Of a stretch of 64,000 bases of DNA, positions 20,854 through 63,890 are shown piece after piece. Position 1 is the first letter of the stretch. Every line of letters starts with the position of its first letter. Origin of the DNA: Mesocentrotus franciscanus (taxonomy: Eukaryota > Echinodermata > Echinoidea > Camarodonta > Strongylocentrotidae); assembly GCA_037976565.1 (NCBI GenBank), contig CP137667.1, positions 31,052,459 through 31,116,458 on the forward strand, in the 5' to 3' direction. Both the position numbers and the translations under genes were made by a program. The notes below the pieces were generated by a model. The model searched no databases, was not told the origin of the DNA, and worked only from the letters and a program-made list of their open reading frames with translations.

Positions 20854-21121
20854 TTACATCTTGTACGCATATCTTAGTCCTCCGATTTCTGCTTTTGCGA
20901 GAGCGTCATCAAGTTCTTGTGTAAAACCACCTGTCTTTGTATTCCAATTTTTCAATATATCCTCAAACGCAGCAGAATAATTTAATTGATGTTTAGCTTT
21001 AATGTTATTAGAGTGGTTGATATCAAATCCTAGAGCGACGCAAAAATAGGTGTAGTTGTCATAGGGCATGAGTTTTGACAGTTTTATGATTTCTCCATCA
21101 CTAACTCTTCTTTCGTCAGAC
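20854..21121 (-). CDS. Gene III exon 3: Death domain 2 and stop
   Basis: Acceptor atattgcag|; same frame as gene II. Key tryptophan in ILKNWNTKTGG retained. Confidence 0.75.
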
Positions 21122-31266: not shown

Positions 31267-31973
31267 AAAATGAATACAGACTATCATGGACTTGATTTCT
31301 GTTCTTCTTTTCTCTTGTTAGACAGGTTGATTTTTTAAGACAGGGGTACCCGTTTAAATAAATGCATGTGCTATCAAACGTAGTGCTCGTATTTTGACCC
31401 CCTTCCCCTAAATAACAGTTTAAGCTATCAACGATGAGCAAATTATAACATAACCCCAAGGAACATGATCAATAATATGGAACCATACTTTATTTTATCT
31501 AGTGTATAAAGTTACCTATGGTCAACCTTCAAAGTGGTTTTTATTTAATAATGGAAATGCGTTTTATACAATTACTTTCAAAATCATATTTCATACATGA
31601 GACGGTAACCAAGGTTCTAGATCGTATGTCAATATTTTGATTAAACGGCTTGAGGAAAAGCCTATATTTATTTATTGTTATGGTACGCTAATATCTAAAT
31701 CCTATTACTAAGCTAAGGAATGAAGAATAATTTTTATGGTAAAATAAGGAATGGAAACATTCAACAATTTTGAAGATGAATGGAGACTTCTCGTGCTGGT
31801 ATATCCGAATAGCCAAGCACTGCTTTCACGTCTACTTTATTTTGTAAGCAAAGCTTTTAATTTCTTGATTACATTAAAGTGTTTAAAAAAAAATTGTTCC
31901 AATCTATCGATTTTATTTTTTAAATTGATATTTAGTATCTTATTATCTTTAGTGAATCTTACCGAAGCCTTCT

Positions 31974-32266
31974 TCATGATAGACATTCGTCAGCAAGACG
32001 AACTAATCCAGCAGCAATCAATGCCTTCTTGAGGGATGCACGTTCTGTTTCCTTGGTTTGCTTTTTGTCCCAGTCCCGAAGCATTGCCAATGTGCCTTTG
32101 CATGTAACGTTTTGGTATCGTGAGTTTGTGGCGACGTATCTTTCTATTTCGACGGCATCAAAACCGAGCTTCTTTCCCAACTCATTTATGATGTCATCTG
32201 AAATCTTCTTGGCTAGTGCTATAAGAAGTGTATCGAAATCTGGTACCTCAGTGGGGCCTTTCCTCA
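31974..32266 (-). CDS. Gene IV terminal exon: Death domain
   Basis: Acceptor tatattgcag| in phase 1 gives VRKGPTEVPDFDTLLIALAK, then the Death-domain core GFDAVEIERYVATNSRYQ and the tryptophan in MLRDWDKKQ, ending DECLS and a TGA. Unlike the paralogous exons in genes II and III it lacks the donor after the domain, so the protein ends here. Central 115 bp are almost identical in DNA to gene II exon 1. Confidence 0.78.
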
Positions 32267-35200
32267 CTGCAATATAAATATAACAGTCGATAGGTAAAAA
32301 GTTTCAAATTGAGAAGGAATACGGAAACTGGATAACGGAGACAATTGAATCCGATGTTATTTCCAATATTTTTCATTTAAGTCGTATTATTTGTGTTGTT
32401 TTATGGTCATTACACTTACAGGAATGGAATGACACGAAACAAAAAATAAACTATTTGAATTCTTGTAACCGGTTCACGATTACTTTATTTCTGATTCGAC
32501 GACATGAGAGAGCGCAAGAATGTGTTTATTGGCCGACTATGTATTCAGACATTCGCGATTACATTTGACATTGTGGCAGTTGCCAAGCGTTCTCTCCAGA
32601 GCAGAGGGACGGGGCATTTAATAATAAATCATGAGATTCCGGAACGGTCTTGGCAAAAACTCAGCATTTACCTTTTCGAGTTTGAGGGGAGGGATTTTCT
32701 TAGCGTTGTTGATTTCAACTCAGATTATTTTGAAGAGGAACCCCTCCCTCAGAGTAAGAATGCAGATGCTGCCATTGTAAGACTGAAGCAAATGTTCGCA
32801 GGACATTGCATCGCTGATTTGATCATGTCAGATAATGGCCCTCCGTTCAACTTTTAGGACTTTGCACATTTCATGAAGAACTATGATATTACGCACAAGA
32901 CTAGCTCTCCTCATTACGCAAAAGGCAATGGCAACGCCGAGAGTGCTGTCAAAATAGCAAAGAGTTTGTTGCGCAAAACAAGTGAAGCGACAGGAGACTT
33001 TCAGCTAGCGCTTCTCAACTGACACAATACACCAACAGTGGGAATGAACAGCTTACCAGCTCAACGGTTTTTTGGTCAACGCACACGCACGGCCCTAGTT
33101 CCAACATCAACAAAAGTGCTAAAACCACGGACAGTTGGGGTGTGTTCGCGGACAAAGCACGGAAGCAGCAAAAACAAAAGCGCTTGTTTGACCATAGGAC
33201 CGCGAAAAATTACCTCCATCGACAAAACGAAATGTAGTGTGCATGAAGCCAAACCCGAACGCACCGAATAAACGCTGGATGACAGCACAAGTGTTGGGTC
33301 AAGTTTCCGGTCATACCGCGTCAGAACAGAATGTGGACGACTGTGTGGCAGAAATCGCTTACACTTGCGCAAGAATGATGAAGTCTTCCATTCTGAGATA
33401 TATTTGTTTCCAGATATTCATGTTAATCGCGATCAGCATCATGCAAGCAGGATTTCTTGAATGCAGCCTCTGAATCGCGAAACAGGAATAGCGAATCGCG
33501 AAAGAATAGCGAGAATCCCAAATTGCAAAGCAGCTACAAGTCGCGAAGTGAGAGGTAAAAATAAATGTGCAAGAACACATCAGCAACTAGTTCGACGTAG
33601 TTCTCGACATCGTTGATCTCCTTCATATATGCCAGAGTTTGTTATCTTTAAGTGAACCAACATATGATGTGCTCGCAGATGCTGTCAGTGCAACAGTAAC
33701 TAATTTGCTTGGTTTAGGTGTTAACCTGGTTTAAGCTAATACGGTTTATGGTATAGTTGCATTACTCGTTATGTATGAAAGTGATACCTTGCAACAGATC
33801 CCAGAATTATAATTAGCATATTGGCTAAAGAAAATGATTTAGGCAATAAGCTTACATGTGTACGTGTATATATATTACCACTCAATTTCCTATGGTTTTA
33901 TTCACACGCATACCACAATCTTTGATTGTCATGCCATACGTGGGAGCTCATTTTCAAAACAATGCTATACGTTTTATTCATGATGAGGCATAATGTTATG
34001 AGAATATTGGTTGTTCTAAACAAAACAATTGGCTTAATATAGACGCATGCAGCTATGGGACAGGATATATTACTAAGGGCAAGAAATCATGGTTGTTATT
34101 TAGATTTTTTGTTTGTATTTAAAGTTTAAAACGAAAAAGTTTGTTCACAAGGATTATGTGTGAAGATGAAGGTTACTCACAGATTGAGGTAGTATGCAAT
34201 TCTATGCTGGCACACATACTAATTTTATAAATGGAGATTTAGAGTTAATGGTTGGTTTTAGTTGACCACTTCATTAAAGAAGAAAGAGTGTTGTATATGT
34301 TTATTGATATTGCGCCATCTAGCGTCCACAGTCTTAAATATGTATACATATGAGATTGTGCTCACGCTCTTTCAAGTTGTCAAATCATGGATAAACTTAG
34401 CATGAACAAGGATTCAAGTAATTTATTATTTTGTTTCGCGTCTTTGCCATGCTGGTGTGTGTAATGGACATGAAACAACAGTTTCAGTATTTATTTATTA
34501 ATTTATTTATTTGATACTGGGAGGTGGGAGGGGTAAACATATTAAATTTAAGGATTTACGGATTTAATATACATGCATGGTTGCGGACAATGCTCCTTTT
34601 TTGTATACACCATTATCATTATTTCATTTATATTTCTTGTTTGTTTTTTCAATCCTGACCGAATGAAGAAATGAATGATTATACAATATGCATGAATAAA
34701 AAAGCTTCTGCTGCCTTTTTGTATTTCATCTAGTGAATTATGTGGCCTATGACTTTTTATTTCCTTTCTTGGAATTTTTTTTCTGAAGGTTCAGCGAGTT
34801 CTGCAGATTATACTGACGTTTTTTTTGTTAAGGCAGCTTTTAAAAGGATAACAGTGATTTTCTGAACGATTCCGAACAAAGTTCTTTTGAAAATTTTCGA
34901 ATATCTTATTATTTTGTATCATCGGTGTTTTCCCCTTATAATATTCATTTTCTATGGAACAAAATAGATTGTCTCACCTGCTTCATTTTGAGAACAGTTT
35001 CCTGCTGCTCGTTCAGCGCGTTTTGAAGATTCTGCTGATGTTATTTAGAAACCAAAAGAAAGTAACCTTGAATGCGTACATTACATATATCGTGTACAGT
35101 TATAATCCCGTACCTAATGTACGAATTATTTGGTATCACTGCTGCATGGAAATAAATTCTTCAACCTTTAACCTGAATCACATTTCAATATTGTGTAGTA

Positions 35201-38200
35201 CATATTTGACAACCGTTTTTCTTATGATGCTCAGGAAAACAGTACAGTCATTCAATTTTCATTACGCATTATTCCAAGTCGAAATTGAATACAGCCTGTC
35301 ATGGACCCGATTTTTCTTTTCTGTTTGTTACACAGGTTGATTTTTTAAAGCCAGGAGGGGCATTCTTCTTTGTACTCTTTTGAATAAATTCACGTGCTAT
35401 CAAACGTAGTGCCCGTCTCTGGACCGCCCTGATAACATTCTGAGCTTTAAAGAAGCTCTCAGATGGAAATAGAAACTAACATAAAGTGTTTCCTCCTTTT
35501 TAATATTCAGTTTTTATGAAACGATAGATTTCTCACCTTCTTCATTTTTTGAACGTTTTTCTGTTGGTCGTTCAGAGGGTTTAGAAGGTTCTGCTGATGC
35601 TATTTAAAAAAGGAAGTAAATTTAAAAGAGTACACAATATATTTCCTGAACAACGAAATGCAAACAGAGCAATTAGCTTTTTATTTTTCATAAAGTTTGA
35701 AGTAAAACCTAGTTTCGATTTTTTCTTTTTTCTTTTTTCTTTTTTCTTTTTTTAATTTTTTTTATATTGACTTGCATATCCCTTTTCTCTTTTTAGTAGA
35801 AGGAATGATCCTCATAAACGTGGTGGAAATATTTGTTAAATTTTTTTTTTATTTATTTACCCTTCTAGTAAGGACAATTGGCTATACAACGTAGTGCTCG
35901 CCTTTGGACCACCCTGACAACATTTTGAGTCTAAATAAGACAGACATAGACTAGACACATGAAGGAGAATGTGTATCCCCATTTCGTTTTCAATTGTTAA
36001 CGATCTGAAAGCAATATGGAAATATTAGGTATATCAATTCAATAACAACAGTGTAACATGTGCGACTTTGAAATTATCAACCTTTATGTATGGGACAGCA
36101 AACATGTGGAATTTGAGTTTGGTCCCAACATTTCACATCAATCTTCTCATATTCCGAATATAGTCAGGTGGCTTAGCGTCAAATTTAGCGATTATCGTTA
36201 CTTGCCGGATAAAAGCACCATTTTTGGTACAGGGCTTCCTTAGGAATTACTTAACGATATTAGGCTAGGAGCCCCCGGCAAAAAATTCAATTTAAGAGTG
36301 TGGGGGGGGGCGTCTTTTGGAGCCCCAAATAATTTTATAACATTGATTTGTTGTTGTACAAATGCCATTTTTGGTACAGGGCTTCCTTAGGACCTACTGA
36401 ACGATATTAGGGTGGGAGCCCCCGGCAAAAATATCATATAAGGGTTTGGGGCGGGGGCATCGCTTCGTAGCCCCCCAAAAATTTAGAAGGTAATATAACA
36501 CTTATTTGTTGTTGTACAAATGCCATTTTTGGTACAGTTCTTCCTTAGGATCTACTGAACGATACTAGGGTAGAAGCCCCCGGCAAGAATATCATATAAG
36601 GGTGTGGGACAGGGGCGTCGCCTCGTAGTCCACAAATAATTTGTAAGGTAATATAACATTGATTTGTTGTTGTACAAACGCCATGGGCCCCAATCACACA
36701 TATATGAATATGTATGCCGGGGGCGCCTACACTACCATCATTTAGCAGGTCCTAATGAAGCCCTGTACCAAAAATGGCGTTTGTACAACAACAAATCAAT
36801 GTTTTATTACCTTACAAATTATTTGTGGACTACGAGGCGACGCCCTACCCTTATGATATCTTGCCGGGGGCTCCTACCATAATATCGTTCAGTAGGTCCT
36901 GAGGAAGCCCTGTACCAAAAAATGGCATTTGTACAACAACAAATAAATGTTATATTACCTTCTTAATTATTTGGGGGCTATGAAGCGACGCCCCCACCCC
37001 ACACCCTTATATGATATTCTAGCTGGGGGCTCCTACCCTAATATCGTTTAGTAGGTCCTAAGGAAGCCCTGTACCAAAAATGGCATTTGTACAACAACAT
37101 ATAAATGTTATATTACCTTCTAAATTATTTAGGGGCTACGAGGCCACGCCCCCGAACCACGCCCTTATATGATATTTTTGTCGAGGGCTCCTACCCTAAT
37201 ATCGTTCAGTAGGTCCTAAGGAAGCCCTGTACCAAAAATGGCATTTGTACAACAACAAACCAATGTTATAAATTATTTGGGGGCTCCAAAAACCGCCCCC
37301 GCCCCCACACCCTTAAATTGCATTTTTTGCCGGGGGCTCCAAGCCTAATATCATTTAGTAGGTCCTAAGGGAGCCCTGTACCAAAAATGGTGCTTTTATC
37401 CGGCAAGTAACGATAATTTCACTAAGCCACCTGACTAATAAGGGAATATTTGAAAAGCTATATTTTTTCAGCGGTCATCCTTTCTTTACTTTACTTAATA
37501 TTCTTCACTTTGAACAAAACGGCTCCATTTAGATTCTTGGCATTGTGCAGCGGTTCTAAAACGGAATTCTAGAAAGAACGCTCCTTTTAAGAACTTTTTA
37601 AGATTCTCCAAGATTCAATTAAAGGTGAAAACCAAGGTGAGGACCAAGGTGAAAACCATTATTCGAGGAACGGGGTTCTCCGTGTGCTTTGTGCAAATCT
37701 TAAATTGACATCCACGTGCAAAGAACAAAGGGCCGAAATACTTATATTTCTTGATATTTCGGACAGGGGCAACTTGTCTTTCAAAATTCTCCCGTTCTTT
37801 TTTCCTTCTTCGTTCTATCACAATAACACAATTATAAATTTATATTCGTATTCCCTTTCTGTGGAGAATTACTCGTATAAGTGGGAGCAGCGGTAGTAGC
37901 AGTAGTAGTAGTATGAGTAGTAGTAGTAGTAGTAATAGTAGAAGTGGCAGGAGTAGTAGTTGCAGGAGAAGTGCTATGAATGTTTTTAGGCGATGAAATC
38001 GATGATGTGGTTACATCTGTCACATGATTAAAGGTTAGGGAATCGTGATTAATATAATAACATAATTGTGCATGATCAACCAGAATAGACATCACAATAG
38101 AAAAATGTTTTAGGGGGTAGATCTTCATTTGGTACAAGATCATACGCTTTCAAAGGACGTTGGATATTATTACTCAGGTTAACCGTAGCGCTTATTGCAT

Positions 38201-41200
38201 TCAAGGAATAAGTCCCACCAGATTCCCGGTAGACCTGAGCCGAGTGTGGGAAATATTGATTTATGTCTTGCTTATAATCCAGAGACTTATGCAATATACC
38301 AGAATACTTCTACATACCTTGATCTTGTTGTGATTTAGCGCTGCTGTTCTGAGGAGTTGGACGATCTCCTTCACCTGCTGTAGGAGAAATTTAAATAGAA
38401 TGGGCTTATGAATATCCATCAGTTTCCGCAATTAAGCATTTGATTTAAACGGGGGACGAGGGTGGCATTGGTATTTGTTATTATCTCGAACAAATGCAAA
38501 ATCTTTGAGGAAAGTCACGTGAAATGACAATAATTAACAATTAATAATAAATGATTTGGAAAGGGGGTGGGGTCTTGGTCGTGGAGAGTCAACAGGGCAA
38601 CTGACACGGAGTCGTCTAATTTTAGTCCTTCATTAGCATGGGTATTTACACTTCAAGGAAAATCCTGTTATTTGTCTCACATGTTGAGGTTTGTTGGAAG
38701 TTTTAGGGCAACCACCCATACACGCAACAATAACCAGGAATCTGAGTAAGGCGTTCTTTATGAAATCTTAAGGAATCTAAATACCATTGAAAAAAAATAC
38801 ACTTTGAAAGGACAACCAATATAAAGCTTCAAATTAACTGAAAGGTTACCTAATTAATTACATCATCATTTCTTAAGAGATAGTTTATAGAAATTGTACC
38901 ACTTTGAGAAAGTGAAATTTCTGAAAGCATATGATATAGTGAATCAGAAACACATTGTTCTTACCTGATTTATGTGTGGCAGAAGAGTCCTTATTGGATT
39001 TGATTCCTTGAAAAGAAATAGTTTACATAAGGGTTACTTCATTATACCACTGTATGTGTGGGCGTTAGTACGTGTGTGCGCGTGCGCGAAAGGTGTGTGT
39101 GCACACTTAAAGGTACTATGTTCCATTTGCAGGCCAAAAAATGAAAAGGTTAAATTCCAACGGCATTTGAAAGACAATACTAATTTAGAACTTCCCTAAA
39201 AAAAGGGGGGCTTGAAAATGTCTTTAAGTGGGAAAATAACGACTATTAGTTGTCGAATCGACTTAGGAGCTATAGAGCCAGTAAGTAATAGTCTGATTTT
39301 TCAGACCATTGTACCGAATGGTCGTACGTTCTATGCTGCGCAAAGATTCATTTAATTTTGGCCATTACAAGAATTGGTTATTGATGTAGACAAATGCTCA
39401 TGTACCCTTTACAGCTCATTTTATGTATGTTATTATCAAAGATGAAAAAAGCCAGTCAGTCACTCAATAGTGTCTGACAGTGAAGTCTAGCAAGTAAACG
39501 GGTTTCCTTGCATAATTTGAATATTAGGACACTGCTAACGTTTAAATTTCACAGATAGGACATACATGACATATTCATAATTCCTGCAAAGTTCTACAGA
39601 ATTTGATGTTGGCTGCAAAAGGGACATAGTATCTTTAAGTATTGGGGTAATAATAATAATAATAATAATAATAACATTTATAATGCGCACATATCCACCC
39701 CAAGAGATGCTCAAGGCGCCTAGCAAGGTAAATACATTCAACATAAGAAAGTACATTGGGTATGTGTATGTGTGTGAAATCAAACCTCAAATCAATCAAT
39801 TGTGTGTCAAATCAAACTTTTTTAATAGCTGTTAACTTTTGAATCAATGTTCCAAACCAATGCGATGAATATTGACAATCACTTATGTGTTGTTTCTATA
39901 AAACATTGACAAAAATATTAATGACATTGTAAGCACATCACCACTCTTAATGAACATTTTATTTGCAGGTGACACTGATGTATTTTATTCACAAACAAAG
40001 TTAAAATACTCTCATTGAAACTTCGAATAATGAATTAGACAAATTATCTACTTTGTTTAGATGTAATAAACTAACTTTAAATATAAGCAAAACCAACTTT
40101 ATATATTTAAGAGTTTGCACTCTACACACGCACTTGCTGAAAATATATGTATTGATAGGATCCGTATTGTACAAACAGATTAATTTAAATTTCTAAATAA
40201 TAGATTCTAATTTGACATGGCATCCCCGAATAATATTTGTACTCTTGTCTCTAGCGCTAAAGGTATATTATATAAATTGTAATATTTTCTTTCACAAGGA
40301 ACACTTTTTAAGGTATATAATAATTCATACCCCCTTATATATCATACTGTAACATAGCATGGGGAAAAGCAGTGTAACGAAAATTAATGTAATATTTCTT
40401 CTTCAAAAGAAAGCATAACGTATATGGGCACGTACGTGTATACATGAACTTAAAACCCTGACAATAAATGATTTTCAGGTCTTCCAATCAGCTATATTTA
40501 TGTATAAATCTTCAATCAATATCTTTGCAAAACCATTCCATACCTTATTCACATACAATACCGATTTTCATTCGTACCCCACCCGTCATTCATCTGACTT
40601 TCACCTTAATAATCCCAAAGTCTTAATAGCCCATAGATCTATAAGACATCATTGACCCGACATTTGGAATGATTTACCCTAAAACATAGAAAAATGCGCA
40701 TCCCTTTCATCTTTTAAAGCCTATTTGAAAATAAATTGTATATTTAGATATTCTAGATGGAAACCCGACAATTTTATTCATGTAATTGTTTGAACTGTTT
40801 ATTTATGGTTTATCCCATATTTGCATATTAGTCGTCACTGGTTGATTATTAATATTATCCATTTTAATGGCGCGCAACTGTTCAGAAGTCAAATACCTGT
40901 GTTTGCACCCGCACCCGCACGTACATACACGCTACAGTGTACCCTTTGATCTTATACACTACGAAACAATTATATGTTAGCACTAGCACTATTGACCCAC
41001 ACATCACGCTTTCAATTATTTTTATTTTTTGTTTTAACAATTAAAATTACACATCTAGGTGACGATCTGAATAATTGTCACACATCGCTTTTTGGCACCC
41101 TGTAGCTTCCCCTCTCCTTCCCAGGCTGCCATCCTCTCAAGCTCCCTGCTTATGATGGTTGGTCTACTGCATTTATTTATTGTTCTAATAATATAGTTAA

Positions 41201-53200: not shown

Positions 53201-56200
53201 GAAGACAGAACATGATCTAATGGGTATTAGCCTTATTATGCGAGAGAATATCATTTGAAACTTAATATGTTAATGTTGCTATGACGGTAGATATACCAGT
53301 CGGATTTAAAAAAAAATACTACCAAGACGACGATTTACTTTCACCATATTGATAAATTTATTGGGAGCAAAGTCTGAACTACGTCCTCATGCCGATTATA
53401 CGGCCTACACGTATGGCTTCACGACCTAAATTTCGGGCTTCCAAAGAATTTGGGATATTATTTTCCCGGCTTTTAGCTCCGGTTAATCGCAGCGCTCGTT
53501 GCATTCAAGGGATTAATCCTACCAGGGTCGAGGGTGGCAAATGTACATTGGCGTCTTTCCAATGGACGATAATGCTCAGTTGCAGGGATTCGAACATTGT
53601 GGATAAAGTTCAGAGGCTTATGCAATACCACAATACTTCTACATACCTTGATCTTGTTGGGAATCATCGTTGCTCTTCTGAGAAGCTCGATTATCTCCAT
53701 CTCCTGCTGGGAGAAAATTAAATGCAATCCTTTAATCGTATTGTGCATTCTTTCTTGTTGTTAGGCGGCTTGAATTTCGTTGTAGTTGTTTGAATAAACA
53801 TATGTAACAACCAATGAACTGTTCGTCTTTGTACATCCCGAATAACAGTATAATGTATAACAAAATAAATGAAAGGGGGGGGGCGAAAAAGTGGTTCTTG
53901 TTCATTTCTTAATTTCTATTTTGTTTTTACTTTTAAATTGTCTTACCCTTTTCCTCTTTGGAACTGTTTTCTGCAGATGTCCCGAGTAGTTTTGAAGCTT
54001 CTGTTCATGATATTAAAGATATATATTGGAAAAATAGAAGAGCATCTCTGAGCCAGTTAGAATATATTGTCATATTATGTGCCTACCAGAATAATTATTT
54101 AGTTCCTGTGAATTAAAACCGCAACCTGACGCCTTCTCTTAAAGGTACTATGTCCAATTTGCAGGCCAAAAAATGAAAAGGTTAAATTCCAACGGCATTT
54201 GAAAGACAATACTGATTTAGAACTTCCCTAAAAAAAGGGGGGGCTTGAAAATGTCTTTCAGTGGGAAAATAACGACTATTAGTTGTCGAATCGACTTAGG
54301 AGCTATAGAACTAGTAAGTAATAGTCTGATTTTTCAGACCATTGTACCGAATGGTCGTACGTTTTATGCTGCGCAAAGATTCAATCACTTTAATTTTGGC
54401 CATTACAAGAAGTGGGTTATTAATGTAGACAAATGCTCATGTACCCATTACAGCTCATTTTATGTATGTTATTACCAAAGATGAAAAAGCCAGTCAGTTA
54501 CTCAATAGTGTCTGACAGTGAAGTCTAGCAAGTAAACGGGTTTCCTTGCATAATTTGAATATTAGGACACTGCTAACGTTTAAATTTCACAGATAGGACA
54601 TAGGGCCTACATGGCATAGTCTATTCATAATTTCTGCAAAGTTCTACAGAATTTGATGTTGGCTGCAAAAGGGACATAATAGTTTTAATAGTGAATACTG
54701 AAAATACATGAAAAGAAGACATTTAATATTCGTATAATGCTTATGAAATATGCAAAAAGAGTGATCAGTTAATATGGTTGAAGACAGAACATGATCTAAT
54801 GGGTATTAGCCTTATTATGCGAGAGAATATCATTTGAAACTTAATATGTTAATGTTGCTATGACGGTAGATATACCAGTCGGATTAAACAAAAAATACTA
54901 CCAAGACGACGATTTACTTTCACCATATTGATAAATTTATTGGGAGCAAAGTCTGAACTACGTCCTCATGCCGATTATACGGCCTACACGTATGGCTTCA
55001 CGACCTAAATTTCGGGCTTCCAAAGAATTTGGGATATTATTTTCCCGGCTTTTAGCTCCGGTTAATCGCAGCGCTCGTTGCATTCAAGGGATTTATCCTA
55101 CCAGGGTCGAGGGTGGCAAATGTACATTGGCGTCTTTCCAATGGACGATAATGCTCAGTTGCAGGGATTCGAACATTGTGGATAAAGTTCAGAGGCTTAT
55201 GCAATACCACAATACTTCTACATACCTTGATCTTGTTGGGAATCATCGTTGCTCTTCTGAGAAGCTCGATTATCTCCATCTCCTGCTGGGAGAAAATTAA
55301 ATGCAATCCTTTAATCGTATTGTGCATTCTTTCTTGTTGTTAGGCGGCTTGAATTTCGTTGTAGTTGTTTGAATAAACATATGTAACAACCAATGAACTG
55401 TTCGTCTTTGTACATCCCGAATAACAGTATAATGTATAACAAAATAAATGAAAGGGGGCGGGCGAAAAAGTGGTTCTTGTTCATTTCTTAATTTCTATTT
55501 TGTTTTTACTTTTAAATTGTCTTACCCTTTTCCTCTTTGGAACTGTTTTCTGCAGATGTCCCGAGTAGTTTTGAAGCTTCTGTTCATGATATTAAAGATA
55601 TATATTGGAAAAATAGAAGAGCATCTCTGAGCCAGTTAGAATATATTGTCATATTATGTGCCTACCAGAATAATTATTTAGTTCCTGTGAATTAAAACCG
55701 CAACCTGACGCCTTCTCTTAAAGGTACTATGTCCAATTTGCAGACCAAAAATGAAAAGGTTAAATTCCAACATTTGAAAGACAATACTGATTTAGAACTT
55801 CCCTAAAAAGGGGGGCTTGAAAATGTCTTTCAGTGGGAAAATAACGACTATTAGTTGTCGAATCGACTTAGGAGCTATAGAACTAGTAAGTAATAGTCTG
55901 ATTTTTCAGACCATTGTACCGAATGGTCGTACGTTTTATGCTGCGCAAAGATTCAATCACTTTAATTTTGGCCATTACAAGAAGTGGGTTATTAATGTAG
56001 ACAAATGCTCATGTACCCATTACAGCTCATTTTATGTATGTTATTACCAAAGATGAAAAAGCCAGTCAGTTACTCAATAGTGTCTGACAGTGAAGTCTAG
56101 CAAGTAAACGGGTTTCCTTGCATAATTTGAATATTAGGACACTGCTAACGTTTAAATTTCACAGATAGGACATAGGGCCTACATGGCATAGTCTATTCAT

Positions 56201-59200
56201 AATTTCTGCAAAGTTCTACAGAATTTGATGTTGGCTGCAAAAGGGACATAATAGTTTTAATAGTGAATACTGAAAATACATGAAAAGAAGACATTTAATA
56301 TTCGTATAATGCTTATGAAATATGCAAAAGAGTGATCAGTTAATATGGTTGAAGACAGAACATGATCTAATGGGTATTAGCCTTATTATGCGAGAGAATA
56401 TCATTTGAAACTTAATATGTTAATGTTGCTATGACGGTAGATATACCAGTCGGATTAAACAAAAATACTACCAAGACGACGATTTACTTTCACCATATTG
56501 ATAAATTTATTGGGAGCAAAGTCTGAACTACGTCCTCATGCCGATTATACGGCCTACACGTATGGCTTCACGACCTAAATTTCGGGCTTCCAAAGAATTT
56601 GGGATATTATTTTCCCGGCTTTTAGCTCCGGTTAATCGCAGCGCTCGTTGCATTCAAGGGATTAATCCTACCAGGGTCGAGGGTGGCAAATGTACATTGG
56701 CGTCTTTCCAATGGACGATAATGCTCAGTTGCAGGGATTCGAACATTGTGGATAAAGTTCAGAGGCTTATGCAATACCACAATACTTCTACATACCTTGA
56801 TCTTGTTGGGAATCATCGTTGCTCTTCTGAGAAGCTCGATTATCTCCATCTCCTGCTGGGAGAAAATTAAATGCAATCCTTTAATCGTATTGTGCATTCT
56901 TTCTTGTTGTTAGGCGGCTTGAATTTCGTTGTAGTTGTTTGAATAAACATATGTAACAACCAATGAACTGTTCGTCTTTGTACATCCCGAATAACAGTAT
57001 AATGTATAACAAAATAAATGAAAGGGGGCGGGCGAAAAAGTGGTTCTTGTTCATTTCTTAATTTCTATTTTGTTTTTACTTTTAAATTGTCTTACCCTTT
57101 TCCTCTTTGGAACTGTTTTCTGCAGATGTCCCGAGTAGTTTTGAAGCTTCTGTTCATGATATTAAAGATATATATTGGAAAAATAGAAGAGCATCTCTGA
57201 GCCAGTTAGAATATATTGTCATATTATGTGCCTACCAGAATAATTATTTAGTTCCTGTGAATTAAAACCGCAACCTGACGCCTTCTCTTAAAGGTACTAT
57301 GTCCAATTTGCAGGCCAAAAAATGAAAAGGTTAAATTCCAACGGCATTTGAAAGACAATACTGATTTAGAACTTCCCTAAAAAAAGGGGGGGCTTGAAAA
57401 TGTCTTTCAGTGGGAAAATAACGACTATTAGTTGTCGAATCGACTTAGGAGCTATAGAACTAGTAAGTAATAGTCTGATTTTTCAGACCATTGTACCGAA
57501 TGGTCGTACGTTTTATGCTGCGCAAAGATTCAATCACTTTAATTTTGGCCATTACAAGAAGTGGGTTATTAATGTAGACAAATGCTCATGTACCCATTAC
57601 AGCTCATTTTATGTATGTTATTACCAAAGATGAAAAAGCCAGTCAGTTACTCAATAGTGTCTGACAGTGAAGTCTAGCAAGTAAACGGGTTTCCTTGCAT
57701 AATTTGAATATTAGGACACTGCTAACGTTTAAATTTCACAGATAGGACATAGGGCCTACATGGCATAGTCTATTCATAATTTCTGCAAAGTTCTACAGAA
57801 TTTGATGTTGGCTGCAAAAGGGACATAATAGTTTTAATAGTGAATACTGAAAATACATGAAAAGAAGACATTTAATATTCGTATAATGCTTATGAAATAT
57901 GCAAAAGAGTGATCAGTTAATATGGTTTAAGACAGAACATGATCTAATGGGTATAAGCCTTATTATGCGAGAGAATATCATTTGAAACTTAATATGTTAA
58001 TGTTGCTATGACGGTAGATATACCAGTCGGATTAAACAAAAAATACTACCAAGACGACGATTTACTTTCACCATATTGATAAATTTATTGGGAGCAAAGT
58101 CTGAACTACGTCCTCATGCCGATTATACGGCCTACACGTATGGCTTCACGACCTAAATTTCGGGCTTCCAAAGAATTTGGGATATTATTTTCCCGGCTTT
58201 TAGCTCCGGTTAATCGCAGCGCTCGTTGCATTCAAGGGATTAATCCTACCAGGGTCGAGGGTGGCAAATGTACATTGGCGTCTTTCCAATGGACGATAAT
58301 GCTCAGTTGCAGGGATTCGAACATTGTGGATAAAGTTCAGAGGCTTATGCAATACCACAATACTTCTACATACCTTGATCTTGTTGGGAATCATCGTTGC
58401 TCTTCTGAGAAGCTCGATTATCTCCATCTCCTGCTGGGAGAAAATTAAATGCAATCCTTTAATCGTATTGTGCATTCTTTCTTGTTGTTAGGCGGCTTGA
58501 ATTTCGTTGCAGTTGTTTGAATAAACATATGTAACAACCAATGAACTGTTCGTCTTTGTACATCCCGAATAACAGTATAATGTATAACAAAATAAATGAA
58601 AGGGGGGCGGGCGAAAAAGTGGTTCTTGTTCATTTCTTAATTTCTATTTTGTTTTTACTTTTAAATTGTCTTACCCTTTTCCTCTTTGGAACTGTTTTCT
58701 GCAGATGTCCCGAGTAGTTTTGAAGCTTCTGTTCATGATATTAAAGATATATATTGGAAAAATAGAAGAGCATCTCTGAGCCAGTTAGAATATATTGTCA
58801 TATTATGTGCCTACCAGAATAATTATTTAGTTCCTGTGAATTAAAACCGCAACCTGACGCCTTCTCTTAAAGGTACTATGTCCAATTTGCAGGCCAAAAA
58901 ATAAAAAGGTTAAATTCCAACGGCATTTGAAAGACAATACTGATTTAGAACTTCCCTAAAAAAAAAGGGGGGGGCTTGAAAATGTCTTTCAGTGGGAAAA
59001 TAACGACTATTAGTTGTCGAATCGACTTAGGAGCTATAGAACTAGTAAGTAATAGTCTGATTTTTCAGACCATTGTACCGAATGGTCGTACGTTTTATGC
59101 TGCGCAAAGATTCAATCACTTTAATTTTGGCCATTACAAGAAGTGGGTTATTAATGTAGACAAATGCTCATGTACCCATTACAGCTCATTTTATGTATGT

Positions 59201-62200
59201 TATTACCAAAGATGGAAAAAGCCAGTCAGTTACTCAATAGTGTCTGACAGTGAAGTCTAGCAAGTAAACGGGTTTCCTTGCATAATTTGAATATTAGGAC
59301 ACTGCTTACGTTTAAACTTCACAGATAGGACATAGGGCCTACATGGCATAGTCTATTCATAATTTCTGCAAAGTTCTACAGAATTTGATGTTGGCTGCAA
59401 AAGGGACATAATAGTTTTAATAGTGAATACTGAAAATACATGAAAAGAAGACATTTAATATTCGTACAATGCTTATGAAATATGCAAAAAGAGTGATCAG
59501 TTAATATGGTTGAAGACAGAACATGATCTAATGGGTATTAGCCTTATTATGCGAGATAATATCATTTGAAACTTAATATGTTAATGTTGCTATGACGGTA
59601 GATATACCAGTCGGATTAAACAAAAAATACTACCAAGACGACGATTTACTTTCACCATATTGATAAATTTATTGGGAGCAAAGTCTGAACTACGTCCTCA
59701 TGCCGATTATACGGCCTACACGTATGGCTTCACGACCTAAATTTCGGGGATCCAAAGAATTTGGGATATTATTTTCCCGGCTTTTACCTCCGGTTAATCG
59801 CAGCGCTCTTTGCATTCAAGGAATTAATCCTACCAGGGTGGAGGGTGGCAAATATACATTGGCGTCTTTCCAATGGACGATAATGCTCAGTTGCAGGGAT
59901 TCGAACATTGTGGATGAAAGTCCAGAGGCTTATGCAATACCACAATACTTCTACATACCTTGATCTTGTTGGGAAACATCGTTGCTCTTCTGAGAAGCTC
60001 GATTATCTCCATCTCCTGCCGGGAGAAATTTAAAGGCAATCCTTTAAATCGACTAATAAGTGGTGTTTCCCAGCTTTTATTTCGTTTGGAGTTGTAGAGA
60101 TAAATAGGCTTTTGTTATTATCACACAAATATAAGATCAGTAAGTAAAGTCAGGTGTAAGAAAAAAAATGAGTCGATTGAAAACGAAGTATTCCAAATAA
60201 ATATTTAATATAATTTAATTCAATTTGTTAAATTATCATAATGTGCATTTTATTGTTGTTAGGCGGCTTTAATTTATTTCTATTGGTTTGAATAAACATA
60301 TGTACTGTTCGTCTTTGGACATCCCGAATAACAGTATGGGGTATAACCAAATAAATGAAAGGGGGGCGGACGAAGAAAGTGGTTCTTGTTCCTTTCTTCA
60401 TTTTTTTTTTTTAAATCTGTTAAATGGTCTTACCCTTTTCAGCTTTGGAACCGTTTTCTGCAGATGCCCCAAGTAGTTTTGAAGCTTCTGTTGATAATAT
60501 ATATAGGCTGTTAGAATATATTGTCATATTATGTGCCTAACAGAATAATCATGTATTTCCTTTGAATAAAAACCCTAACCTGACGCCTTCTCTCAATAGT
60601 GAATATTGAAAAGACAATGAAAAGATGACATTTTATATTATCATGCCGATTATACGACATACATGTAATATCATATTGTGAGGTCAATATCAAACCATAC
60701 CCTTTACTTAACCAAAACCCTAAATATCAGAAAAAACAATCCATCTGAAAACTAATGAAAGCCAAGTCCAAATTCTCTTTCTGATGAAATAAATTCCGGA
60801 TCAAACGTGGTGCCATATGTAGAGTAATGTATAACACGTACCTAGTTCGAGTTTGGTCTCCTTTTCCTTTTTCTTTTCATCCTTTCTAGAGGAGCGTTGA
60901 CCTTGAAAACAAATGTAAACCTTGGCATTATTGCTTATATTTGTATTGCACTTACAAATTCAGGTTAGTCTATTTATTGAAAACAAAAGAAAAATACGTG
61001 TAGGCACACTTTTATTCTAATTCCACAAATGAAGACCTCGGTTCCAAAAGGTACTACATCCATAAATCCAAGTTCTGAGAAAAACACGATTTTTTTTGTA
61101 TTATCAGATTAAGCAATGTCAGTTAAGAATGATACTTTGGGTGGTTATACTATTGTATGATACAAGTATAAAACCACTCTTTAAAAAAAATCTAAGTCTG
61201 CACAAATATTTTGTATGCATTTATGTTTTGTTTAATTTGTGTGGATGTTGTACCTTTAGGAAACGAAATTGATATAGTACTTTTTTTAACCGAAAATATT
61301 GCAAATTGTATGCAAGTTACAATGCATAACTTTGAATGGATATAGTACCTTTTGGAACAGAACTGATTTTTAAATGCAATTTTTAACTTTTGGGGGGAAA
61401 TTCAGCTTTTTGGAAGTGTCTGTATAAGAGGCTACTAGAAATGTGTTCAATAATGCAATACAATCAATTTTGATAAAAATGGATGTAGTATCTTTTGGAA
61501 CTGAGCTCTTCAAATGACTGTTTCCCGTCTTTATATATCAAAATAGCAGACGGAAAATATCCTTAAACATTGAGAAAAGTAATGTACAAAGATCAAGATA
61601 TAGACATTTACCCCAAAAAGGTTTGTTCAGATATAAAGGGGTAAACCGTCGCAAAAAAGGAGAAAACCGCTGCGTCCTCTGTTTTAAATGTAAATAAATA
61701 GCGACTGCGCACAACATATGTCCGAACGAGACCTAATGGGTAAGAAATTGGAACACGTATATTTTTTGGTGAAATCCAACATAATAGAGAGTAAAATATA
61801 CCCAATATCAGGTTGGATTTTACCGTCGAAAAGCATGTACCCTTTTTAACCAATTTAATTTATTTTAAATTTCAATGCTTCGTTCTTTTTAATATTTTCT
61901 TAAATCATGATTTTGTTTTAGAGTAGGAAAATAATGTTTGTCATGTTTCGGAGACATACTTACCTCGTTTTGTCGAACGATGATAGATGCAAAGGGTGAT
62001 GATCGCCAGGGAGATGCCTACAAGCAGCACAATGCCTATTGTTATCCCAGTGATTTCACCACCCGTCAAATTATTTCCCGGTGTGTTTGGTACATCTAAA
62101 GAAGTGTGACAATTTGAAAGAATAAATAATTAATTAGAATAACCTTAGGGAGTGTTATCTTCCAAAAAGTCTGTTCAACATCTTCCTGTGTTAATAATAA

Positions 62201-63194
62201 TGATAATCATATTAACAATAATAATGATAATACTACTACTACTAATAATAATAATAATAATAAAAATAATAATAATAATAACAATAATAATATTGATAGT
62301 AATTATAATGATAATATGGATATTTATAATAATAGTGACAATAATATTAATCATAATATCAAAAGTATGATAATGAAGTTGGACTGAAGCGCATAATATA
62401 ACGGGACATCATGCTCAGCAATACAGTTATTATTTTTAAAAAAAATTTCATGCTTACAGATTTCTACATATTAATCCCAATATAAAAGATAATGTAATAT
62501 GGTATGATATTAATAACATGAAGTCAAACATTAACATCCACTTAAAATATATTTCATTAAAAAAAAGTGTATCCTTGTATTAATTGTATTAATCGTGAGA
62601 TAGATATACCAAAGGCTTTATGATTGTTTCCAGTGCTAGATTAATATATTCGGGTGTTAGGAAGTTGCCATAGGGCTAATCAAGACGAGAAATGAGTAAT
62701 TTTGCAAGGCCTTTTGTGTTGCACAAAACAATCGTGACATAAATTGGTGTCTGTTGTTTTGTGCAAAATTCCATGTGCGGCAAACGAACAACCGTAAAGA
62801 GGGGCGCAGATAGCAAAACAAAGTATTAGGTACCTATTTTCACACTGTAATAAATACATACCTGCGGATGGTATGATACATGCTTCAACTGATACGGCAG
62901 TGTTCTCTCTCCCATTAGTCGAAAGATATGTGGCGTTACAGGTAAAGTTTCCTGTTTCAAGCACCTGAATCTGTCGACTGATATCAGTGGTCCCGTCATC
63001 ATTCTGCGTAACGCCATCAGTAGATGATACACGTTTTCCATCCTGATACCAAATGAGTTCGGTATCTTGAATAGGATAAACGTTGGGGAGTGTGCAGGTA
63101 AGGGTGAAGGACTGGTTGGCGTGAATGCTGCAGGATGAAGACTTGTCGGCCCCGGTGCACGGTGAAATTACCGGAAGCGTATCAGGGCGAAGAC
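31974..63194 (-). CDS. Gene IV: Ig-domain transmembrane receptor with cassette-repeat tail and Death domain (3' part)
   Basis: Minus-strand exons join in phase 1 throughout: Ig (63194-62862), transmembrane (62095-61964), juxtamembrane (60901-60842), eight B/A cassette pairs (60487-48910), B (44054-44001), a 14-aa exon (39006-38965), A (38374-38318), B (35590-35537), B (35031-34978), Death domain and stop (32266-31974). Using every open exon gives about 655 aa in this window: extracellular Ig fold, one membrane helix, a polar Ser/Lys/Glu/Asp/Gln-rich tail with a 37-residue repeat, then a Death domain. The start, signal peptide and any further ectodomain lie to the right. AATAAA at 31917-31912 (minus strand) could serve polyadenylation. 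The role as a Death-domain signalling receptor is inferred. Whether all cassette exons are used is unknown. Confidence 0.65.
32504..33590 (+). pseudogene. Ty3/Gypsy-like integrase remnant
   Basis: A plus-strand fragment in a gene IV intron reads a retroelement integrase core. The first catalytic Asp lies in SVVDFNSDYF (about 32698), the second in MSDNGPPF (about 32830) and the Glu in NGNAESAVKIAK (about 32935). Downstream GMNSLPAQRFFG and an Arg-rich tail continue in other frames. At least two stop codons (TAG after NGPPFNF, TGA after ALLN) and several frame shifts make it dead. No LTRs found nearby. Confidence 0.82.
33600..34977. other. Gene IV intron
   Basis: AT-rich. I see no exon or transposon signature here. 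Confidence 0.4.
34978..35031 (-). CDS. Gene IV cassette exon B (oldest type)
   Basis: 54 bp, acceptor aacatcagcag|, donor GCAG|GTGAG. Encodes SSKRAERAAGNCSQNEA between split codons. Clearly diverged from the array B exons, but same length and phase. Confidence 0.58.
35537..35590 (-). CDS. Gene IV cassette exon B
   Basis: Encodes PSKPSERPTEKRSKNEE, acceptor gcatcagcag|, donor GAAG|GTGAG. It and the exon at 34978 share GTGAG donors, while the array exons use GGGTAAG. Confidence 0.58.
35600..36160. other. Intron sequence from older units
   Basis: Contains CAACGTAGTGCTCGCCTTTGG near 35888, a marker found in each old and new unit (31379, 35399, 41852). Includes a TTTTTTC-rich pyrimidine tract at 35718-35765. 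Confidence 0.5.
36161..37437. mobile_element. Large palindrome of inverted tandem repeats
   Basis: Outer inverted ends of about 70 bp begin TAGTCAGGTGGCTTAG. Inside, about 158-bp monomers (GGTACAGGGCTTCC ... TTGTTGTTGTACAAATGCC) run in one orientation at roughly 36217, 36363 and 36521, and in the opposite orientation at 36759, 36907, 37066, 37225 and 37374. The switch point is near 36690. No transposase. Best read as a foldback-type element in a gene IV intron. Confidence 0.85.
37882..37975. repeat. (AGT)n microsatellite
   Basis: GTAGTAGCAGTAGTAG with interruptions. On the minus strand it gives a Thr-rich ORF that is not a gene. Confidence 0.9.
38318..38374 (-). CDS. Gene IV cassette exon A (older copy)
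   Basis: 57 bp, acceptor acagcag|, donor CAAG|GTATGTAG. Encodes EGDRPTPQNSSAKSQQDQ; the SQQDQ end is shared with the array A exons. Confidence 0.62.
38965..39006 (-). CDS. Gene IV small exon, 14 codons
   Basis: Acceptor tcttttcaag|, donor TCAG|GTAAGAA, phase 1 on both sides. Encodes IKSNKDSSATHKS after a split Gly codon. Acceptor context resembles the juxtamembrane exon at 60901. Confidence 0.5.
39107..39638. mobile_element. MITE family M1, intronic copy
   Basis: TTAA at both ends, with inverted AGGTACTATGTTCC / AGATACTATGTCCC termini. Independent insertion 100 bp upstream of the exon at 38965. Confidence 0.85.
39645..39790 (-). mobile_element. LINE or SINE 3'-end fragment
   Basis: An AAT run then CATTTATAATGCGCAC and GATGCTCAAGGCGCC; reversed, this is a typical microsatellite-tailed LINE 3' end. 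Confidence 0.6.
39905..41472 (+). mobile_element. Degraded LINE, reverse transcriptase C-terminal part and 3' end
   Basis: The plus strand reads NINDIVSTSPLLMNILF followed by AGDTDVFYS, the RT catalytic FADDT motif with its first Asp changed to Gly. CNKLTLNISKTNFIYL follows at about 40053, and a C-terminal ASLSSFKAYLK-like end near 40700. Several frame shifts and stops. The 3' end has TTTGTAAACGCAAGG, GGCGCTATATCAAATATC and GATTG tandem units at 41447-41468. Different from the two minus-strand LINEs. Confidence 0.8.
41473..43060. other. Gene IV intron between old units
   Basis: Contains a poly(A) run at 41641-41658 and one AAACGTAGTGCTTG unit marker at 41851. No exon found. Confidence 0.45.
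43035..43102 (-). pseudogene. Dead copy of the tandem-Death-domain linker exon
   Basis: Acceptor ctctccacag| followed by DNSASLQPSKVTKSH-like sequence in the linker frame, then a stop and no donor. Flanks 43060-43400 match 2480-2830 at gene I. A fossil of a small Death-domain gene inside the receptor locus. Confidence 0.6.
43600..43655 (-). pseudogene. Decayed B cassette exon
   Basis: Reversed, reads atttttcag|AATCCACTGAACGACCAACA, like the exon at 35590, but then loses the frame and donor. Confidence 0.55.
44001..44054 (-). CDS. Gene IV cassette exon B
   Basis: Open, 54 bp, acceptor catcaacag|, donor AAAAGG|GTAAG. Encodes ASKLPGKSAENCSKDEK, intermediate between old B exons and the array type. 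The nearby CCCTTAATAG (44174-44183) is the unoccupied version of the M1 insertion site found in each array unit. Confidence 0.65.
44308..44357 (-). pseudogene. Decayed A cassette exon
   Basis: Acceptor ttctcccagcag| is intact, but a TAG replaces the CAG codon after DGDTPTP and the 3' end with its donor is lost. Confidence 0.65.
44801..46382. mobile_element. GC-rich Harbinger-type MITE, TTA duplication
   Basis: Inverted ends share CGTCACATATCCAA. The 3-bp TTA at 44801-44803 and 46380-46382 is typical of PIF/Harbinger insertion. It sits in the donor region of a B-type exon: the flanks rejoin to match 60430-60460. Interior is GC-rich with many CGGGC motifs at both sides of a nested element. Confidence 0.78.
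45424..45919. mobile_element. MITE family M2 nested in the GC-rich MITE
   Basis: Inverted ends GGTTCCAAAAGGTACTACAT / GGTTCCAAATGGTACTACA, extended outward by ATATATGAAG. Internal GTAGTACCTTTTAGAA motifs repeat. A relative is at 61027-61517. Confidence 0.8.
46384..46435 (-). pseudogene. Decayed B cassette exon
   Basis: 52 bp instead of 54, with TAA and TAG in the expected frame. Acceptor ctgcaacag| still visible. The donor abuts the right end of the GC-rich MITE. Confidence 0.65.
46756..47367. mobile_element. GC-rich MITE, 612 bp
   Basis: Inverted ends TGMCTGGATTACATTTG, then ATTAGTCTACG on both arms. Interior dense in CGTACGGA / GTGCAG motifs. Flanking triplets TAA and TCA do not match, so the target duplication is unclear. 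Confidence 0.75.
47368..48600. other. Old unit remnants and a local direct repeat
   Basis: CTTTTGCTGGAATCGTTGAT recurs at 47969 and 48171, and CTAGTTCTGTAATYGGGTTG at 48128 and 48420, so a piece of 200-300 bp is partly duplicated. No open cassette exon seen. Confidence 0.6.
48910..48966 (-). CDS. Gene IV cassette exon A, unit 1
   Basis: Acceptor ttctcccagcag|, donor CAAG|GTATGTAG. Encodes DGDNRASQKSNDDSQQDQ, then a split Gly. Confidence 0.68.
49213..49266 (-). CDS. Gene IV cassette exon B, unit 1
   Basis: Acceptor atcatgaacag|, donor AAAAGG|GTAAG. Encodes ASKLLGTSAENSSKEEK. Confidence 0.68.
49406..49951. mobile_element. MITE M1, array unit 1
   Basis: TTAA at both ends. The right terminus is changed (ATAATAGTTTTAA) relative to non-array copies, a mark shared by every array copy. 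One base is missing from the AAAAGGGACAT run. Confidence 0.85.
50489..50545 (-). CDS. Gene IV cassette exon A, unit 2
   Basis: Same peptide and splice sites as unit 1. Confidence 0.68.
50791..50844 (-). CDS. Gene IV cassette exon B, unit 2
   Basis: Same peptide and splice sites as unit 1. Confidence 0.68.
50983..51533. mobile_element. MITE M1, array unit 2
   Basis: Differs from unit 1 mainly in a longer AAAAAAAAGGGGGGG run. Confidence 0.85.
52070..52126 (-). CDS. Gene IV cassette exon A, unit 3
   Basis: Exon unchanged. The adjacent intron has a one-base deletion (GGGATTATCC). Confidence 0.68.
52371..52424 (-). CDS. Gene IV cassette exon B, unit 3
   Basis: Exon unchanged. Confidence 0.68.
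52563..53109. mobile_element. MITE M1, array unit 3
   Basis: TTAA ends retained; shorter G run. Confidence 0.85.
53647..53703 (-). CDS. Gene IV cassette exon A, unit 4
   Basis: Exon unchanged. Confidence 0.68.
53947..54000 (-). CDS. Gene IV cassette exon B, unit 4
   Basis: Exon unchanged. Confidence 0.68.
54139..54688. mobile_element. MITE M1, array unit 4
   Basis: Carries CCAACGGCATTTG, as in units 6 and 7, where units 1-3 have CCAACAGCATTTG. Confidence 0.85.
55226..55282 (-). CDS. Gene IV cassette exon A, unit 5
   Basis: Exon unchanged. Confidence 0.68.
55526..55579 (-). CDS. Gene IV cassette exon B, unit 5
   Basis: Exon unchanged. Confidence 0.68.
55718..56260. mobile_element. MITE M1, array unit 5
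   Basis: Has a small private deletion in the left arm (CCAACATTTG) and GCAGACC for GCAGGCC. Confidence 0.85.
56796..56852 (-). CDS. Gene IV cassette exon A, unit 6
   Basis: Exon unchanged. Confidence 0.68.
57096..57149 (-). CDS. Gene IV cassette exon B, unit 6
   Basis: Exon unchanged. Confidence 0.68.
57288..57837. mobile_element. MITE M1, array unit 6
   Basis: TTAA ends retained. Confidence 0.85.
58374..58430 (-). CDS. Gene IV cassette exon A, unit 7
   Basis: Exon unchanged. Confidence 0.68.
58675..58728 (-). CDS. Gene IV cassette exon B, unit 7
   Basis: Exon unchanged. Confidence 0.68.
58867..59420. mobile_element. MITE M1, array unit 7
   Basis: Has extra private changes (AAAGATGGAAAAAG; CTTACGTTTAAACTT), fitting a position at the array edge. 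Confidence 0.85.
59959..60015 (-). CDS. Gene IV cassette exon A, edge unit 8
   Basis: Encodes DGDNRASQKSNDVSQQDQ, with Val where the array has Asp. Acceptor ttctcccggcag|. Surrounding intron shows more substitutions than inside the array. Confidence 0.68.
60434..60487 (-). CDS. Gene IV cassette exon B, edge unit 8
   Basis: Encodes ASKLLGASAENGSKAEK, the most diverged of the eight. Acceptor tatcaacag|, donor AAAAGG|GTAAG. The intron lacks the M1 MITE: 60588 reads CTCTCAATAG where array units carry the insert. Confidence 0.68.
60842..60901 (-). CDS. Gene IV juxtamembrane exon
   Basis: 60 bp, acceptor tgttttcaag|, donor CTAG|GTACGT, phase 1 on both sides. Encodes QRSSRKDEKKKEKETKLEL, highly charged, as expected just inside the membrane. 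Confidence 0.65.
   Translation of the reverse strand, partial: VNAPLERMKRKRKRRPNSN
61027..61517. mobile_element. MITE family M2, second copy
   Basis: Ends CTCGGTTCCAAAAGGTACTA / CTCAGTTCCAAAAGATACTA in inverted orientation, and ATGAAGA beyond them. Shares TAAATCCAAGTTCTGAGAAA with the 45424 copy. Confidence 0.8.
61964..62095 (-). CDS. Gene IV transmembrane exon
   Basis: 132 bp, acceptor acttctttag|, donor CGAG|GTAAGTA, phase 1-1. A short stalk (VPNTPGNNLTGGE, with a possible N-glycosylation site NLT) leads to the hydrophobic stretch ITGITIGIVLLVGISLAII, then TLCIYHRSTKR with basic residues on the cytoplasmic side. The positive-inside pattern agrees with an extracellular Ig domain upstream. 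Confidence 0.8.
62190..62370. repeat. (AAT)n microsatellite
   Basis: AATAATAATGATAAT runs in a gene IV intron. The Ile-rich ORF here is a by-product. Confidence 0.9.
62862..63194 (-). CDS. Gene IV Ig-domain exon
   Basis: 333 bp (111 codons), acceptor ttcaattaag|, donor GCAG|GTATGT, phase 1-1 as is usual for Ig exons. Canonical Ig residues by exon position: Cys34 (FTLTCTLP), Trp49 (ELIWYQDGK) and Cys86 (TGNFTCNATY). Cys13, Cys22 and Cys102 could form extra bridges. NFT and NAT are possible N-glycosylation sites. It lies directly before the stalk, so this is the membrane-proximal Ig domain. More may lie to the right. Confidence 0.85.
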
Positions 63195-63867: not shown

Positions 63868-63890
63868 NNNNNNNNNNNNNNNNNNNNNNN
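63868..63890. other. Assembly gap (23 N)
   Basis: Unresolved bases just before a CT microsatellite (63891-63916). Confidence 1.

Follow-up and report, generated by a model that had tools for sequence, protein, structure and literature searches.

TNFR1, Fas and p75NTR are single-pass receptors with a Death domain. In CLEC4M the repeat of the neck lies within one exon, and for the UNC5 netrin receptors no tandem exon tail is known to us.

UNC5 has the nearest known layout to the locus of the sea urchin Mesocentrotus franciscanus described here. According to the available part of the source, UNC5 has an extracellular Ig part, one transmembrane (TM) helix and a C-terminal Death domain (DD), as predicted here, and a short isoform of C. 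elegans lacks the DD (PMC10464613). The same part of the source gives TSP1 repeats, ZU5 and UPA for UNC5 (PMC10464613), whereas none was seen at this locus. Pfam found no TSP1, ZU5 or UPA at E <= 1 in the spliced 655-aa model, which lacks whatever lies upstream of the Ig exon.

The Death-domain TNF receptors (TNFR1, Fas, p75NTR) resemble the predicted receptor in their Death domains, which rank among the solved folds nearest to the DD modeled here. They differ by their cysteine-rich TNFR repeats, in place of which an Ig ectodomain and a long cassette tail were predicted for this locus. Neither these repeats nor a cytoplasmic TIR domain of the IL-1R/Toll-like receptors was detected by Pfam in the 655-aa model (5' part missing). 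In CLEC4M, as far as the available part of the source goes, the in-frame repeat number varies in a receptor spacer, as it does here. However, that spacer is a tandem repeat in a lectin neck, whereas at this locus the repeat comprises whole exons with their introns and belongs to a predicted cytoplasmic tail. The available portion of the literature contained no such receptor; an earlier mention in the 2006 sea urchin immune-gene papers is possible. The Ig-Death layout itself is known, and what would be new is the exon tail of this predicted receptor, which is modular and amplified in tandem. We consider it probable, on the basis of the genomic sequence, that the phase-1 exons described below belong to a predicted sea urchin Ig membrane receptor with a 21-cassette tail ending in a DD, a member of a new modular Ig-Death receptor family.

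Exon chain of the predicted receptor locus

The locus lies on the minus strand of the window (C2:31052459-31116458), that is, of the whole stretch of 64,000 nucleotides that was analysed. The genome searches covered 21 contigs (773 Mb). The chain was found to comprise 25 minus-strand exons (Table 1), and each of the 24 non-terminal exons had a length that was a multiple of 3, phase 1-1, an AG acceptor and a GT donor. The Ig exon was followed by the TM exon, a basic juxtamembrane exon J, 21 intact polar cassettes and the DD exon with its TGA. The cassettes fell into an A family (A0-A8, A9, A10), a B family (B0-B7, B9) and a single C, for which no relatives were found in the paralogous loci read. 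Four more cassette copies (~46431, 44362, 43640 and 34805; weak matches) look dead by sequence reading, showing stops or lost splice sites. The possibility that the cassettes were chance open frames was ruled out, since their splice sites and frames recur in other loci.

A minus-strand chain of phase-1 GT/AG exons running from Ig through TM and cassettes to a DD had been described in the sequence-only reading. It was confirmed by our exon reading and by the same order in three paralogous loci. The observation is real and larger than had been described, as the earlier figure of about 13 cassettes was an undercount. The interpretation given in that reading was, as a whole, partly supported.

Two further elements were noted within predicted introns. 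A 158-bp tandem repeat at 36336-37390, present in both orientations, forms a large inverted array in the predicted B9-A9 intron. Inside a predicted receptor intron, at 43099, the DD-linker exon known from the neighbouring DD-DD genes was recognized by eye in degenerate form; it is taken as a trace of segmental exchange between the DD-DD and receptor gene types.

Table 1. Features of the receptor locus, numbered by position in the window
Feature	Position	Strand	Length	Remarks
Assembly gap, 23 N	63868..63890			homology to the sister-gene V-Ig intron stops here
Ig exon, C-type Ig domain	62862..63194	-	333 nt	phase 1-1; Pfam Ig_2 E 1.5e-6, C1-set 6.9e-5
Transmembrane exon, DVPNTPG...IGIVLLVGISLAIITLCIYHRSTKR	61964..62095	-	132 nt	homologous TM exons downstream of other Ig copies
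Juxtamembrane basic exon J, GQRSSRKDEKKKEKETKLEL	60842..60901	-	60 nt	identical in sister gene L062
Cassette A0	60434..60487	-
Cassette B0	59959..60015	-
Tandem array	48910..58728	-		seven ~1579-bp units, each cassette A + cassette B
Array cassette A, EASKLLGTSAENSSKEEK			54 nt
Array cassette B, GDGDNRASQKSNDDSQQDQ			57 nt
Unit 1	A1 58728-58675, B1 58430-58374	-
Unit 2	A2 57149-57096, B2 56852-56796	-
Unit 3	A3 55579-55526, B3 55282-55226	-
Unit 4	A4 54000-53947, B4 53703-53647	-
Unit 5	A5 52424-52371, B5 52126-52070	-
Unit 6	A6 50844-50791, B6 50545-50489	-
Unit 7	A7 49266-49213, B7 48966-48910	-
Cassette A8, EASKLPGKSAENCSKDEK	44001..44054	-
Cassette C, GIKSNKDSSATHKS	38965..39006	-	42 nt
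Cassette B9, GEGDRPTPQNSSAKSQQDQ	38318..38374	-
Possible extra Thr-rich exon	37873..38016	-	144 nt	open, phase-1 acceptor and donor; excluded from the exon model
Cassette A9, EPSKPSERPTEKRSKNEE	35537..35590	-		homologues in L040 and the next gene
Cassette A10, ESSKRAERAAGNCSQNEA	34978..35031	-
Death-domain exon	31974..32266	-		no ATG ahead of the domain; TGA 31976-31974; donor equivalent at 31962

Tandem array and sister array

Fourteen of the 21 cassettes (A1-B1 to A7-B7) were located in seven head-to-tail units of ~1.58 kb. Over the full unit, introns included, U1-U6 were 99.5-99.8% identical; the homology of U7 was lost ~300 bp beyond its B exon. The seven A exons were identical to each other, and likewise the seven B exons. 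No signal of exon-versus-intron conservation was obtained, with 0 variable columns in the A/B exons of the 7 units and ~1 expected by estimate. Because the introns too carry so few differences, the exon identity is uninformative on selection.

The sister gene (L062) was found ~92 kb away. Its Ig is 90% identical to the Ig of this locus, and it has a signal-peptide core, a V-Ig exon, the identical J exon and A0/B0 equivalents. Its array, ~80 kb from the one described here, gave five matches each to A and B, arranged in tandem at ~1578-bp spacing. Hence, the variable tail length that had been supposed from the sequence alone is borne out at the DNA level, with 7 tandem units here against 5 in the sister.

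It was considered whether the array or its copy number could be an assembly artefact. Long near-identical repeats misassemble easily, and the 23-N gap lies nearby. However, U1-U6 can be told apart by their own substitutions and indels (any two differ at 3-8 substituted positions), diverged copies border the array, A0/B0 on one side and A8 on the other, and a separate array of five units exists. An artefact is therefore very improbable, and the exact number of units is uncertain.

It is also possible, if doubtful, that the array arose recently as a neutral tandem duplication of intronic DNA carrying two small exons, most copies of which would be skipped, leaving a short tail. Such a duplication would fit the near-identity of whole units, the exons of which have no testable extra conservation, and the dead look of older cassette copies at four places; owing to the symmetric phase, skipping would be harmless. 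On the other hand, all 14 array cassettes retain intact frames and splice sites, which does not prove their use, as the units are too young, and the sister locus has its own array, the A and B exons of which were open in the three units read.

The genome search with A-cassette DNA gave 19 matches, all on C2, 18 of them on the minus strand. All 18 lay within 60 kb downstream of an Ig copy, nine belonging to this gene and six to the sister; this count omits the plus-strand match C2:29708907, and the 19 do not include the diverged A exons of L040 and the next gene. The B-cassette search gave 22 matches, all on the C2 minus strand; one B-like match, at C2:31167734, lies downstream of the sister array. 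Each unit also contains an interspersed element, to which matches of 300-550 bp were recorded in the window at 39106-39640, 24203-24495 and 15226-15518. This element may have ridden along in the tandem duplication of the units or helped to start it.

Death-domain exon

The open frame of the DD exon continues for 13 codons upstream without an ATG (L001), whereas the neighbouring stand-alone DD genes L002 and L004 have an in-frame ATG. In L005 and L007 an ATG is present upstream of the acceptor, with none between the acceptor and the domain. Because no ATG precedes the domain and the acceptor is of phase 1, the DD exon needs an upstream coding exon. The distance from its start to the matching donor is 304 nt, compared with 303, 303 and 294 nt in three relatives. 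The exon thus exceeds a multiple of three by one base, and with the TGA just before the donor the DD is complete but terminal in this copy.

Structure prediction gave a six-helix Death fold for the DD, with a good model. Pfam Death was matched at E <= 0.1 by all 28 members of the DD alignment, this copy scoring below the curated cut-off. A PDB sequence search with the DD gave 0 matches. The dN/dS values of this DD were 0.94-1.35 against L005, L006, L007 and L060, and 0.63-0.75 against L003 and two DD-DD genes of the window; as the values are often near 1, they do not demonstrate constraint on the DD. For the Ig exon the values were 0.28-0.33 in comparison with two relatives and 0.57 in comparison with the sister. 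The DD search of the genome scored 150 matches of 334 candidates, so that the genome holds at least 150 related DD matches.

Relatives in S. purpuratus

In a protein search, all nine matches at E <= 0.01 were S. purpuratus Ig proteins (P0001-P0009), at 64-83% identity over 20-42% of the query. Four are named 'T-lymphocyte activation antigen CD80-like', the others 'otk-like', 'hemicentin-2-like' or uncharacterized. Compared with the Ig-family loci found here, the nine reached at most 84.5% identity. They share the same Ig exon and, in 5 of the 9, the TM segment, at 60-80% identity in the alignment; a homologous Ig exon followed by a TM exon, as in the sea urchin CD80-like Ig-TM family, was found at the locus. 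The structure model of the P0001 Ig (pLDDT 59) was too poor for a structure search.

The S. purpuratus proteins differ from the predicted receptor in their tails, which are short or absent; none of the nine has a tandem A-B array or a complete DD. P0001, P0002 and P0005 end shortly after the membrane helix, and P0006-P0009 stop before it. P0003 ends with GLLPSTDDFDDTLVAVAKK and nine unrelated residues, and this tail resembles the start of the terminal DD exon of the next gene: 0 of 5000 shuffles were as good against that DD and 1 of 5000 against the DD of this gene. The tail of P0004 resembles the B cassettes, with as good a score in 11 of 5000 shuffles against B, 51/5000 against B9, 67/5000 against the L040 B, 379/5000 against the B-like copy at -12277 and 0/5000 against the dead B copy at 44358. 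P0003 hints that Ig-TM proteins joined to GLLPST-type DD exons occur. Both P0003 and P0004 are database gene models, however, and the splicing they show could be a prediction too. When proteins were searched with the tail plus DD, 0 of 2559 candidates reached E <= 0.01 (lengths about 218-693 residues) and, in the second search, 0 of 5741 reached E <= 1 (about 360-1146 residues).

Paralogous Ig loci

The genome search with the Ig exon gave 19 rows, which corresponded to 14 copies on C2 (this one included, one split in two), one on C20 and three weaker matches. The stretch between Ig and DD was read in three paralogous loci. One is the adjacent gene upstream, called the next gene here (C2:31.13 Mb); the other two, L040 (C2:31.54 Mb) and L060 (C2:29.50 Mb), were picked for a DD within 6 kb of the Ig. 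All three contained Ig, TM, J, A and DD on one strand, open and in multiples of 3, with AG acceptors and GT donors except for one GC donor (L060 TM).

In each of the three, the DD exon is a symmetric phase-1 cassette with a phase-1 donor; in the next gene an A9 cassette comes after it, and then another DD exon, which is terminal and contains a stop. Both features had escaped the sequence-only reading, as had the fact that the family is a cluster of Ig genes, some with a DD nearby and some without. L060 contains a signal-peptide core, V-Ig, Ig, TM, J, A and DD within 7 kb and alone of the relatives read looks whole, its initiator-ATG exon not having been located. The V exon of the next gene is frameshifted, and L040 showed no V exon in the 2 kb read upstream of its Ig exon. 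The tail end of L040 was not found; C2:31.53-31.54 Mb (L061) gave three weak matches, which were judged to be chance.

Among the 14 C2 Ig copies and the 150 scored DD matches, six copies had a same-strand DD downstream within 31 kb and before the next Ig copy; the DDs of two of these six (29717437 and 29802077) may be stand-alone genes. No copy (0/14) had a DD on the opposite strand. The sister-array gene had only one scored DD downstream, 50.5 kb from its Ig exon, so it may be that an array does not always go together with a DD.

The locus could also be read as two transcription units, the first a short-tailed Ig-TM receptor, whether it includes cassettes or not, and the second an independent Death-domain gene lying downstream of it. 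For seven of the 14 C2 Ig copies, no scored DD was present in the 60 kb downstream or in the stretch up to the next Ig copy, and the nearest DD of the sister array is remote. At this locus the Ig and DD are 31 kb apart, and three S. purpuratus models end soon after the membrane helix and four before it. Against this account, the DD exon lacks an initiator ATG after its phase-1 acceptor, the DD lies 3.5-5.9 kb from the Ig in the same order in the three paralogues, and P0003, a database gene model, joins an Ig-TM protein to the start of a DD. We regard two units as unlikely and retain the single receptor gene as the preferred reading.

Two other observations concern the Ig copies. A plus-strand cluster of four Ig copies at C2:27.97-28.09 Mb had no scored DD nearby on either strand and no A-cassette match, and it is possibly a DD-less branch of the family. 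A GC donor (AG|GCAAGT) was observed after the TM exon in L060, L053, L054, L055 and L044, whereas this gene has GT; the GC donor might weaken splicing into the tail and thus favour short-tail forms.

The 5' part of the gene

A signal peptide and a V-type Ig exon are present in the sister and several other copies. No V/signal exon was found within 9.8 kb upstream of this copy, and a search of 63.2-73.0 kb for a signal-peptide-like first exon with a strong phase-1 donor gave 0 candidates. Homology to the V-Ig intron of the sister is at 76% identity and ends at 63866, with ~250 bp still to go to the V/signal-peptide exon of the sister. As this point is next to the gap at 63868-63890, the assembly gap is the likeliest cause of the missing V exon.

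The missing exon could also mean that this copy is a decaying gene and that the compact relatives are the working ones. The extra base that brings an early stop to the DD exon, unlike in all three relatives, the dead cassettes and the DD dN/dS often near 1 point the same way. However, the missing exon coincides with the gap, the stop leaves the DD complete and this domain gives a good model, and the Ig exon keeps low dN/dS values against two relatives, though a higher one against the sister. Decay was therefore judged to be a tentative alternative to a working receptor gene.

Composition of the tail and proposed mechanism

The tail of 403 residues contains no F, W, Y or M and is rich in charged residues and Ser. 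The disordered tail that had been postulated earlier agrees with the charge-hydropathy rule, by which the tail is compositionally disordered. With 0 tyrosines in the 403 residues, tyrosine-based ITIM/ITAM signalling motifs were not found. Scans with patterns that we take to represent TRAF6-like, ITIM and SH3 motifs gave 0, 0 and 1 occurrences in the tail, and these repertoires were rejected.

A TRAF2-like SKEE occurred once per array A cassette, giving 7 in the tail against a shuffled mean of 3.0 (41 of 2000 shuffles as high), and was absent from all 14 other cassettes tested. Each unit contained 5 acidophilic-kinase-like [ST]xx[DE] sites, whereas shuffling gave a mean of 1.85 and reached that number in 22 of 2000 shuffles. 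The 44 such sites of the whole tail are mostly one unit repeated. As the cassettes outside the array hold 0-2, these putative sites are a weak lead.

The following mechanism was proposed. All exons would be joined in one mRNA, and ligand binding by the Ig part would cluster the receptor. The tail, given its composition, may serve as a flexible tether, and its length, altered through exon copy number or splicing, might set how far the Death domain reaches or how it clusters. The DD would recruit cytosolic Death-domain partners, leading to an output of the caspase or NF-kB type, probably an immune or cell-death signal. Candidate partners are the adjoining genes, predicted to be DD-linker-DD with an in-frame ATG, and the products of the at least 150 related DD matches in the genome.

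Because all cassettes, the DD exon of the relatives included, are of phase 1-1, unequal crossing-over or exon skipping would keep the frame while changing the tail length or the presence of the DD. We tentatively suggest that the output could be encoded by exon copy number: unequal exchange of the 1.58-kb unit and skipping might yield a graded tail length or valency and a switch between Death-domain (signalling) and Death-less (decoy) forms, with the frame kept.

In S. purpuratus reportedly only three Death-domain TNFRs occur, as far as the available part of the source goes (PMC6394757), and with at least 150 DD matches in the present genome the extracellular input to the DD machinery becomes a question. 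The clustered Ig receptor family, with members that have a DD nearby and members that do not, is a candidate for such an input. Further, the 7 units here, the 5 of the sister and the single A of the compact relatives would provide a natural tether-length series for Death-domain assembly.

Neighbouring genes and elements in the window

Several ORFs, at 9238-9972, 19706-20068 and 30557-31317 and at 26066-26550, resemble by eye pieces of retrotransposon reverse transcriptases and a transposase piece; for three of the suspected transposon ORFs Pfam gave no match at E <= 0.01.

Near-identical segmental copies of ~9 kb, at 20857-23016 and 10829-14021 (minus strand), each carry a gene predicted to encode a DD-linker-DD protein, with an in-frame ATG. 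In these two genes the first Death domain is followed by a linker exon (GDNSTMLP...) and then by a Death-like domain that has diverged and gave no Pfam Death match of its own. Their products are possible cytosolic partners of the receptor. The gene at 4638-4943 (minus strand), which starts from an ATG of its own, represents a third type of Death-domain gene. It has a duplicate ~100 kb away (C2:31156534-31156788), and the open frame of the copy in the window continues into a 70-bp tandem repeat.
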